From Opitutia bacterium (GTDB taxonomy: Bacteria > Verrucomicrobiota > Verrucomicrobiia > Opitutales > Opitutaceae): 64,000 bases of DNA. The stretch is taken from contig JACRHS010000010.1 of NCBI GenBank assembly GCA_016217595.1, forward strand, positions 1-64,000. The letters are read 5' to 3'. The position numbers and the translations under genes were made by a program. A model generated the notes under the pieces. It was given only the letters and a program-made list of their open reading frames with translations. It was not told the DNA's origin and did no database searches. Positions 17,724 to 20,061 of the stretch are shown here, one piece after another. Each line of letters starts with the position of its first letter. Positions within the stretch are counted from its first letter, which is position 1.

Positions 17724-18155
17724 CTACCCGACCAGTTCGGCCGCTGTCCGCACGTAGCCGAGGCAACGGCCGCGCAGGTAGCCTTTCTCCTGAAATTCGC
17801 GCTGGCCCGCCTCGGTCTGTAGATCGCAACCGTCCAGGAGCTCGCAGCACCGGCAACTGCCATGCTGTGCCGCGAAACCGTTCATCAACTCGCGCACCGC
17901 CGCGTACGTCTCGCCCGTGCGGGCCTTGTCGTCGCCCAACGCCCGGCCTTGGCGCAGACTGAGCGCGAGGATCCCGCCCGTCACCGCACCGCACACCTCC
18001 TGCTTCCGCCCCATGCCAGCGCCAAACCCCGTGGCCAGTTTCACCACGAATTCCGGCGCGACTCCGCCGTCGCGCGTGCAGGCGTGAGCGACGGCTTGGG
18101 CGCAGTTGTAGCCTTGCAGGAAGAGTGTTTCGGCATTGTCGGCGGTTGTGCTCAT
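17724..18155 (-). CDS. C_GCAxxG_C_C family protein
   Basis: A 143-residue cysteine-rich cytoplasmic protein. Cysteines at 18 (GYNCAQAV), 26, 55 (EVCGAVTGG), 101-104 (CRCC), 110 and 131 fit the named C_GCAxxG_C_C pattern, seen in putative redox-active or metal-binding proteins. It is last in the arsM-arsN2-sigZ run, 44 bp after sigZ. Its family is often encoded near redox and metal genes in anaerobes, but no activity is known. In this setting it could bind As(III) or store thiols; this is inference. Confidence 0.85.
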   Translation of the reverse strand: MSTTADNAETLFLQGYNCAQAVAHACTRDGGVAPEFVVKLATGFGAGMGRKQEVCGAVTGGILALSLRQGRALGDDKARTGETYAAVRELMNGFAAQHGSCRCCELLDGCDLQTEAGQREFQEKGYLRGRCLGYVRTAAELVG

Positions 18156-18199
18156 AACCTCAGTCAACGGCTCTCTCGCGCGCGTTTTCAAGCCGCCCG

Positions 18200-18784
18200 T
18201 CAACCGCTGCGCCGCTTCCCGCCGCACTCGCCAGCACAGGGCGCCGCGGTGCGCCGGCGCTCGTAGTCGATGATCTTGCCGTAGCGGTCGAATTCGAGGC
18301 GGCAGCAATCCTGAAGCTTTTTCTTCAACATCGCGCGACCGCGCTGCACCCGCGATTTCACCGCCGTGAGCGACAGATCCAGCCGCAACGCGATTTTCGC
18401 CAGCGGCAGTCCCTCGAACTCCGCCAGGCGCACCGGCTCGCGATAGCGTTCCGGCAGCTCCGCCAGAAAATAGCGCACCGAGGCCATCATCACGGTCGTC
18501 ACATGATCCGCCCCCGCCGGCAGCTCGCCCGCCAGCTCGGCGGGCAATTCTTCGTTGGGCCGTCGCCGGCGGTAGTAATCGATGATCGTCGTGCGCGCCA
18601 CTCGGTAGAGCCACGCGTCGAGCCGGCTGCCGTCCTGCAACGCGCCGCGGCTGCGGTACACTTTGAGGAGCGTCTCCTGCGTGAGATCGTCGGCGGTGGC
18701 GTCGTCCGGCACGCGGCGGCGGATAAAACTCCGCAGCCGCGGCGCCATGGCGAGCACGCCCGAGTCGAAGGCTGGCGCCGTCAT
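18200..18784 (-). CDS. sigZ: SigZ-type ECF RNA polymerase sigma factor with cysteine-bearing tail
   Basis: A 194-residue ECF-like sigma factor. Region 2 is visible at about residues 15-75 (DDLTQETLLKVYRSRGAL, AWLYRVARTTIIDYYRRRR) and region 4 at about 105-155 (ELPERYREPVRLAEFEGLPL then LTAVKSRVQRGRAMLKKKL). After region 4 comes the SigZ-specific extension CCRLEFDRYGKIIDYE, then a Cys183-x3-Cys187 motif. Cys160, Cys161, Cys183 and Cys187 could form a soft-metal or redox site. No anti-sigma factor gene is adjacent, so the tail may itself sense the signal. The ATG overlaps the arsN2 stop by 4 bp, and the gene is thus part of the arsM operon. Confidence 0.88.
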   Translation of the reverse strand: MTAPAFDSGVLAMAPRLRSFIRRRVPDDATADDLTQETLLKVYRSRGALQDGSRLDAWLYRVARTTIIDYYRRRRPNEELPAELAGELPAGADHVTTVMMASVRYFLAELPERYREPVRLAEFEGLPLAKIALRLDLSLTAVKSRVQRGRAMLKKKLQDCCRLEFDRYGKIIDYERRRTAAPCAGECGGKRRSG

Positions 18785-19242
18785 GGGGTCAACGCGCGCG
18801 CCATGCACACGGCCGTGGCCGGGCACAGCCCGCGAAACTCCGCCGTGGCCGCGATGGCCGCCGGCACGATCCGCCGCGCCACCACCGCGAAACCGCGCCG
18901 CGCGAAAAACCGCTCGGCCGTCGTCGTGAGCAGGAACAGCCGCGTCACCCCGAGACCGCGCGCGCGGGCCACGATGGTCTCGGCGAGATTGTCGCCCAGC
19001 CCCCGGCCGCGCAGTTCGGGCGCGACCACGAGCGAGCGCAGCAGCGCGTCGGAGCCGTGCACTTCGAGGCCGACGGCACCGACCGCCGTCTCGCCCGTCC
19101 ACGCCACGAGGAAATTTCCCAGATGCGGCGCGATGTCAGTGTGCGGCAGGTCAGCGGCGGCGAGCAGCGCGGCGATGGCGGCGGCATCGTCGGGCTGCGC
19201 GGGCTTGAGCACGATGCGAAGGGCGGAGTCGGCCTCGTTCAT
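18781..19242 (-). CDS. arsN2: Arsenic-resistance GNAT acetyltransferase ArsN2
   Basis: A 153-residue GNAT-fold acetyltransferase. The acetyl-CoA loop is VVAPELRGRGLGDNL, preceded by LLRSLVV and followed by RLFLLTTTAERFFARRGF, where the TTAE(R/D)FF segment is typical of proteins annotated ArsN2. ArsN-type enzymes are thought to acetylate arsenic-containing compounds such as the glutamine-synthetase inhibitor arsinothricin, but ArsN2 substrates are less clear. It starts 3 bp after arsM ends and overlaps sigZ by 4 bp, so it is tightly coupled. Confidence 0.88.
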   Translation of the reverse strand: MNEADSALRIVLKPAQPDDAAAIAALLAAADLPHTDIAPHLGNFLVAWTGETAVGAVGLEVHGSDALLRSLVVAPELRGRGLGDNLAETIVARARGLGVTRLFLLTTTAERFFARRGFAVVARRIVPAAIAATAEFRGLCPATAVCMARALTP

Positions 19243-19245
19243 GGC

Positions 19246-20061
19246 TCAAGCCTTGTAGGCGGTGATGTTGGCGGAAACCACAAAATCGGCGACCGTCGGA
19301 TCGTCGGACCACGAGGCGATGAGCTCCCGCGAGCCGGGCTTGGGCACGACTTCCACGCGGGCGAAACCCGCCGCGCGCAGCGTGGCTTCGAGTTCGCTCA
19401 CCAGCGATGCGCCGCCGATACAGGCGCCGATTTCCGCCAGCTGGTTGCGCAGCCGTTCGGGCAGCGGCTGGAGTGCAACGATGTCGGAGAGCGCGAGCCG
19501 CCCGCCGGACTTGAGCACGCGAAACGCCTCGCGAAACACCTGCGGCTTTTCCGGCGAGAGGTTGACCACGCAATTCGAAATGATGAGGTCCACCGTCGCG
19601 TCGGCCACGGGCAGGTGCTCGATCTCGCCGAGGCGAAACTCGACGTTGGCGAAGCCGCTTTTGCGCACATGACCGCGGGCCTTGGCGATCATCGCGGGCG
19701 TCATGTCGACGCCGATCACGTGCCCGGTGCCGTTGAGCTGGCGCGCGGCGAGGAAGCAGTCGAAGCCCGCGCCGCTGCCGAGATCGAGCACCGTCTCGCC
19801 GGGCCGGATGCTGGCGAGCGCGATCGGATTGCCGCAGCCGAGCCCGAGATCGGAGCCGGCGGGCGCGGCGGCGAGTTCGGTGGCGGAGTAGCCGAGTTTT
19901 TCGCCATAGGCCTGGCCGGAAGTTGCGCAACAGGCGCTGCCGCTGGCGGTGCTGCAACAGCCCGACGCGGCGGGTCTATCGGACTGCGTGGCGATGGCGC
20001 CGTAGCGGTCGCGCACGTAATCGCGGATCTGATCGGGAGCGAGTTTTTCGTAGGATGACAT
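19246..20061 (-). CDS. arsM: Arsenite S-adenosylmethionine methyltransferase
   Basis: ArsM converts As(III) stepwise to methylated, partly volatile species. The 271-residue product has the SAM-binding motif TVLDLGSGAGFDCFLAAR, followed by VIGVDMTPAMIAKAR, and the arsenic-binding cysteines in IISNCVVNLSPEKP and IGACIGGASL. The Asp-Cys in the SAM loop (GFDCF) is also conserved in the family. A cysteine-rich N-terminal stretch (CCSTASGSACC) is added, which is seen in some bacterial ArsM proteins. The ATG at 20061 was chosen since the domain begins with MSSYEKL; the frame upstream runs through a repeat. It heads the operon with arsN2, sigZ and the C_GCAxxG_C_C gene. Confidence 0.96.
   Translation of the reverse strand: MSSYEKLAPDQIRDYVRDRYGAIATQSDRPAASGCCSTASGSACCATSGQAYGEKLGYSATELAAAPAGSDLGLGCGNPIALASIRPGETVLDLGSGAGFDCFLAARQLNGTGHVIGVDMTPAMIAKARGHVRKSGFANVEFRLGEIEHLPVADATVDLIISNCVVNLSPEKPQVFREAFRVLKSGGRLALSDIVALQPLPERLRNQLAEIGACIGGASLVSELEATLRAAGFARVEVVPKPGSRELIASWSDDPTVADFVVSANITAYKA

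Follow-up and report, generated by a model that had tools for sequence, protein, structure and literature searches.

SigZ as a candidate cysteine-tailed ECF sigma factor of arsenical-detoxification operons

The window, that is the whole stretch of 64,000 nucleotides analysed here, carries a sigma factor gene, sigZ, among genes for arsenic detoxification, which raises the question of whether SigZ drives these genes and, if so, to which signal it would respond. The best explanation of the material presented below is that SigZ is probably a self-contained, cysteine-tailed ECF sigma factor driving its own arsenical-detoxification operon.

The sigZ operon and its product

Four genes form a cluster on the minus strand of the window. 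It begins with arsM (19246..20061; NF008823, 317.6 bits, E 7e-95, cut-off 263) and continues with arsN2, coding for a GNAT-type arsenic resistance N-acetyltransferase (18781..19242; NF040501, 160.3 bits, cut-off 125), sigZ, coding for an ECF sigma factor of 194 aa (18200..18784; TIGR02959, 178 bits, cut-off 168.65; Pfam Sigma70_r2 and r4_2), and, as the last gene, one for a C_GCAxxG_C_C family redox protein (17724..18155; TIGR01909, 67.8 bits, cut-off 47.4; PF09719, 92.3 bits, cut-off 27). All four exceed the cut-offs of the curated models. Only 3 bp separate arsM from arsN2, arsN2 and sigZ overlap by 4 bp (ATGA), and 44 bp lie between the sigZ stop and the start of the C_GCAxxG_C_C gene on the same strand; the tight arsM-arsN2-sigZ-C_GCAxxG_C_C operon described in the earlier note is borne out by coordinates and curated models alike. 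A single transcript would presumably span the four genes, in which case SigZ would amplify its own synthesis.

No arsR was found inside this operon, which consequently does not show the combination of arsR with arsM that marks an ArsR-controlled operon. The nearest arsR lies about 500 bp past the C_GCAxxG_C_C gene, after a plus-strand ORF. A separate ArsR-type operon at 13437-17222 of the minus strand holds arsR, arsC, acr3, a second arsR, an ArsP_1 permease and an ArsE-like thioredoxin, the two arsR genes being located at 16878-17222 and 14725-15093; its ArsP_1 permease scores below the SaoE and SO_0444 cut-offs. The two ars operons are separated by a gene for a VF530-family small DNA-binding protein on the plus strand (17360-17583).

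The SigZ protein has only sigma regions 2 (residues 13-75; PF04542, 60.5 bits) and 4 (residues 104-153; PF08281, 51.4 bits), which makes it an ECF (group IV) sigma factor, and among the 42 ECF-like matches in its genome it is the sole one above the SigZ cut-off. It is somewhat divergent, since it reaches 174 bits in PRK09637 (NF007215), a stricter second SigZ model with a cut-off of 212; its membership of SigZ is based on TIGR02959, the cysteine tail and the promoter. The nearest SigZ outside the genomes compared, from a Verrucomicrobia bacterium, has 74% identity. Two unusual forms were seen elsewhere. In a relative (G010, L029:7075-8124, plus strand) ArsN2 and SigZ are joined in-frame in one ORF of 349 aa, and at one Bacillota locus (L275:5259-5978, minus strand) the SigZ frame passes, just after the CC motif, into a C-terminal segment of a DUF2703 protein, by fusion or deletion.

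Arsenic genes and a shared promoter at sigZ loci

The surroundings of sigZ were compared across more than 1000 genomes. A SigZ match at E <= 1e-42 was found in 15 of 388 genomes of Verrucomicrobiota, the window's genome included, and the sample from other phyla came from Pseudomonadota (34/398), Bacteroidota (32/247) and Bacillota (19/249); 60 loci of other ECF sigma factors, treated identically, served as controls. At every one of the 15 verrucomicrobial loci outside the window (14 other genomes and L037 from a wide scan) arsM, arsI or arsH lay within 3 kb of sigZ. Counting ArsM, ArsI, ArsH and Acr3 within that distance, and leaving out ArsC, whose profile drew in Acr3, gave 15/15 loci in Verrucomicrobiota, 13/38 in Pseudomonadota, 7/35 in Bacteroidota and 5/19 in Bacillota, compared with 0/60 control loci. 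When the ArsP_1 permease and DUF2703 were added, the numbers rose to 26/38, 9/35 and 18/19 in the latter three phyla. Partners were verified with curated Pfam and NCBIfam models, including ArsI/CadI (139.5 bits, cut-off 116), ArsH (374 bits, cut-off 292), DUF2703 and the ArsE-type thioredoxin. It was previously reported that DUF2703 occurs in an ars cluster of Rhodococcus aetherivorans and is induced by arsenate (As(V)) (PMC6514093).

On a tree of 111 SigZ proteins, association with arsM requires a minimum of nine changes; well-supported branches force four or more of them, so that the association recurs independently. Comparison across phyla shows SigZ tied to arsM, arsI/cadI, arsH, the ArsP_1 permease and DUF2703, and as judged from these neighbourhoods the link between SigZ and arsenic is real and general; the co-occurrence elsewhere whose absence would have told against the earlier note is present. 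Many sigZ loci in Bacteroidota have metallothionein-like genes or unrelated neighbours instead of arsenic genes. The former are tiny CxC/CxxC-rich ORFs of about 26-48 residues that often adjoin sigZ (15/35 loci; examples are L238-L241, L246-L251, L255-L257, L046, L048, L050 and L053).

A candidate SigZ promoter, TGCGTCCTT-TCGCGCGGCTCCG-CGTC, was located at 20089..20114 of the minus strand, just beyond the arsM start at 20061, by dyad enumeration, a fixed spacer and a matrix match. With TGCGTCCTT as its -35-like and CGTC as its -10-like element, it precedes the arsM ATG by 27 nt and is the sole match of the matrix in the 64-kb window, both strands considered. When the sequence ahead of the first operon gene was enumerated for two-box words at 16 verrucomicrobial SigZ loci, GCGTC-N16-CGTC came up in 13, with a maximum of 3-4 in shuffles. 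With near-variants counted, 15 of the 16 share N-T-G-C-G-T-C-[CT]-T-T, 13 nt and CGTC[TA], the consensus being TGCGTC(C/T)TT-N13-CGTC(T/A), or TGCGTCYTT-N13-CGTC, with a spacer fixed at 13 nt. The first genes in these loci are arsM, arsI or sigZ itself (arsH is next in two), and since they are unrelated the motif is not explained by gene homology. At the sixteenth locus (L028) copies of the motif stand upstream of sigZ, at distances of about 1.1 kb and 0.5 kb, and precede arsC-like and DUF6428 genes, among others; they suggest DUF6428 as a further regulon member.

No inverted repeats were found near the candidate promoter. A dispersed repeat of about 77-94 bp has three copies in the window (20136-20227, 20852-20945 and 22411-22487), one of which abuts the arsM promoter, and occurs nowhere else in the assembly. 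Derivation of the promoter from this repeat was considered and rejected, since the promoter ends at 20114, short of the start of the repeat at 20136.

The matrix was trained solely on the 15 verrucomicrobial sites and scored on the sigma strand within 1.5 kb of sigZ. It matched in 16/19 loci of Bacillota, 19/35 of Bacteroidota, 18/39 of Pseudomonadota and 2/2 other loci; the three named phyla together gave 53/93, compared with 0/60 controls, and about 40 of these 93 loci lacked the motif at the threshold used. In Bacillota the motif lies between sigZ and the gene for DUF2703 or arsM; glutathione S-transferase genes follow it in gammaproteobacteria, and arsI or arsM elsewhere. At L231 it is found about 410 bp upstream of sigZ, before a protein of 116 residues that ends in CC and has no Pfam match. 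When 249 whole Bacillota genomes were searched with a strict pattern, it was present in 11 of the 19 with SigZ and 3 of the 230 without (p 5e-12), and all 11 matches were at the sigZ locus. A promoter shared upstream of arsM, as the earlier note had envisaged, was likewise found among 23 verrucomicrobial genomes with arsM, in 6/6 with SigZ and 0/16 without. In the remaining genome (G134, L314:845-1408, plus strand) arsM directly follows the gene of a weaker SigZ relative, and the motif, here with a spacer of 14 nt, lies between them.

The genes directly after the promoter thus far seen are arsM, arsI, arsH, ArsP_1, DUF2703, glutathione S-transferase, metallothionein-like ORFs and sigZ, and at the loci examined acr3 was never the first. 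Comparison thereby shows a dedicated, predicted promoter directly before arsenical-detoxification genes or sigZ's own operon. RNA polymerase carrying SigZ would recognise TGCGTC(C/T)TT-N13-CGTC(T/A). At nine loci the -35 reads T[T]CGTC or GTCGTC, and in 9/9 of them the SigZ recognition helix is YST-[LFV]-K, where SGAK or TAVK is usual for TGCGTC loci; since the variant arose once on the SigZ tree, this pairing is a single event and is consistent with direct recognition. Recognition of the promoter by SigZ is strongly supported by these comparisons, and SigZ very likely transcribes the operon from 20089-20114.

The earlier note suggested that SigZ may be an arsenic- or thiol-responsive sigma factor for this operon or for a regulon extending beyond it. 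The two checks that it named, a search for a shared promoter and a survey of neighbourhoods, gave clearly positive results. As to a wide regulon, a loose pattern, TGCGTCYN{14,16}CGTC, gave 19 matches in the window's genome compared with 20 for the reversed control, which at that looseness is no evidence of one; in this assembly, 68% complete, the one convincing predicted target is the arsM operon itself.

The cysteine tail, the signal and rival explanations

Conservation and an AlphaFold model delineate a C-terminal cysteine extension of SigZ (18224..18307, minus strand) made up of Cys160-Cys161, a beta-hairpin (EF-DRYG-KIIDY), Cys183 and Cys187. Among 111 SigZ proteins the tail reads CC-x7-G-...-C-x2-C, with the final Cys pair in most. 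This family-wide trait, which we take from the present comparison and not from a published SigZ definition, is seen in the window protein as C160, C161, G169, C183 and C187, the last pair being C-x3-C. Cys161 is kept in 107/111 proteins (absent in 4), Cys160 in 89/111 (absent in 22) and Gly169 in 103/109. At the corresponding place CC is lacking from the control ECF proteins. In the model (mean pLDDT 89) the last helix extends to residue 160, residues 161-176 form the hairpin (strands 161-165/171-176) and the last 18 residues are flexible; an antiparallel hairpin of this kind would juxtapose the two Cys pairs, which may bind an arsenical. No anti-sigma-like family was found among the recurrent neighbours of sigZ, and SigZ would presumably work without an anti-sigma factor. 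A SigZ-like subgroup within a subset of Pseudomonadota (L209-L230) has one Cys after region 4, often followed later by CCFVPR; it adjoins an ArsP_1 permease and an ArsE-like thioredoxin, and TGCATC replaces TGCGTC in several of its promoters.

It might be argued that the motif is the operator of another regulator and that sigZ is just carried along in arsenic islands, a reading already disfavoured that we regard as highly improbable. The pairing of SigZ and promoter is known wholly from sequence comparison, and the -35 GCGTC lacks the AAC that is common in the -35 of ECF promoters. Against this, the motif is directional, with 62 matches on the same strand and 3 on the opposite one (Pseudomonadota, Bacteroidota, Bacillota and other sets), has a fixed 16-nt spacing and a CGTC -10, tracks the presence of SigZ, stands before unrelated targets whose only regulator in common is SigZ, and varies in its -35 along with the SigZ helix. 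It is also conceivable that SigZ, constitutively active once made, merely amplifies a response to arsenic sensed by ArsR or another factor. This seems unlikely, although the next operon holds two arsR genes, 0.5-3 kb away, and most ars operons are regulated by ArsR (PMC11868830): the motif is found at the arsM operons of genomes with SigZ and is absent from arsM genomes without it, several of which have an adjoining arsR, and the conserved Cys tail would then have no obvious reason.

Somewhat unlikely, too, is that SigZ drives the operon in response to another soft metal or to thiol stress (Cd, Zn, Cu, Hg or electrophiles), the arsenic genes being one output of several. Tails of the CorE type sense Cu or Cd/Zn (PMC8999054). 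CadI belongs to the ArsI family, glutathione S-transferases are among the gammaproteobacterial targets, and metallothionein-like ORFs accompany sigZ at the Bacteroidota loci noted above, on account of which a broader soft-metal signal has to be kept in view. Yet arsenic-specific enzymes are encoded in the window and at all 15 other verrucomicrobial loci, and we know of no role of ArsM or ArsH in Cd or Cu resistance.

We return to SigZ as the probable driver of its own operon and a possible sensor. A trivalent arsenical or a similar soft metal would bind the CC...CxxC tail and thereby activate SigZ, in the way that copper acts on CorE through a Cys-rich tail of another kind. That the signal is a soft metal(loid) is rather likely, that the cysteine tail is the sensor has a reasonable case in its favor, and a trivalent arsenical in particular is slightly favored; As(III), methylarsenite or another soft metal may be the inducer, and the arsenic responsiveness of SigZ is suggested by its target genes and cysteine tail. 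A more specific proposal, which we make tentatively and with doubt, is that SigZ itself acts as a direct sensor of trivalent organoarsenicals, methylarsenite for example, by way of its vicinal Cys pair. The products of arsM, arsI, arsH and ArsP_1 act on organoarsenicals, although the ArsP_1 permeases found here belong to a broad family in which not every member need export MAs(III), and it is because the direct targets are largely such genes, and acr3 is not among the first genes, that this proposal arises. Methylarsenite needs two thiols only and would thus suit the vicinal pair (PMC11868830).

Now that it can be given a defined promoter, a small number of targets and a tail that may act as sensor, SigZ gains its first concrete, testable job. 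A sigma factor that brings polymerase to such genes would, if true, account for arsM and arsI operons without arsR and could serve as an arsenical biosensor of the activator type whose promoter is portable. To our knowledge no arsenic-sensing sigma factor has been known so far, and should SigZ sense methylarsenite-type arsenicals it would be the first, in at least five phyla.

Comparison with known systems

SigZ of Bacillus subtilis (TIGR02959) belongs to the same curated protein family as the window SigZ, and its function was left blank in a 2023 table of sigma factors (PMC10141391). In the open-access full texts searched, a body of literature with most subscription journals outside it, no link of SigZ to arsenic or of any sigma factor to ars genes was found. 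The papers searched describe arsenic regulation as repression by ArsR, and a sigma factor recruiting polymerase to arsM or arsI would, if true, follow a different logic. Like SigZ, the ArsR/SmtB proteins of ars operons, including the MAs(III)-selective SpArsR, are Cys proteins that control ars genes such as arsM (PMC11868830); they are repressors released by arsenicals, whereas SigZ would be an activator within RNA polymerase.

Among ECF sigma factors, ECF41 and ECF42 have a C-terminal extension in place of an anti-sigma factor (PMC8999054), as SigZ presumably would, but the extension is TPR-rich in ECF42 and a fused regulatory domain in ECF41, compared with the short cysteine hairpin of SigZ. 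CorE and CorE2 of Myxococcus xanthus (ECF44, now ECF238), which provide a functional model for SigZ, work without an anti-sigma factor, as SigZ presumably would, and like SigZ carry a Cys-rich C-terminal extension and adjoin their metal-detoxification targets (PMC3107203, PMC8999054). We considered SigZ as CorE-like and rejected it, since the CxC in the sigma2-sigma4 linker of CorE was found in 0/111 SigZ proteins. SigZ further differs from CorE in its short CC-hairpin-CxxC tail in place of the CorE domain, in its arsenical targets and in having a TIGR family of its own.
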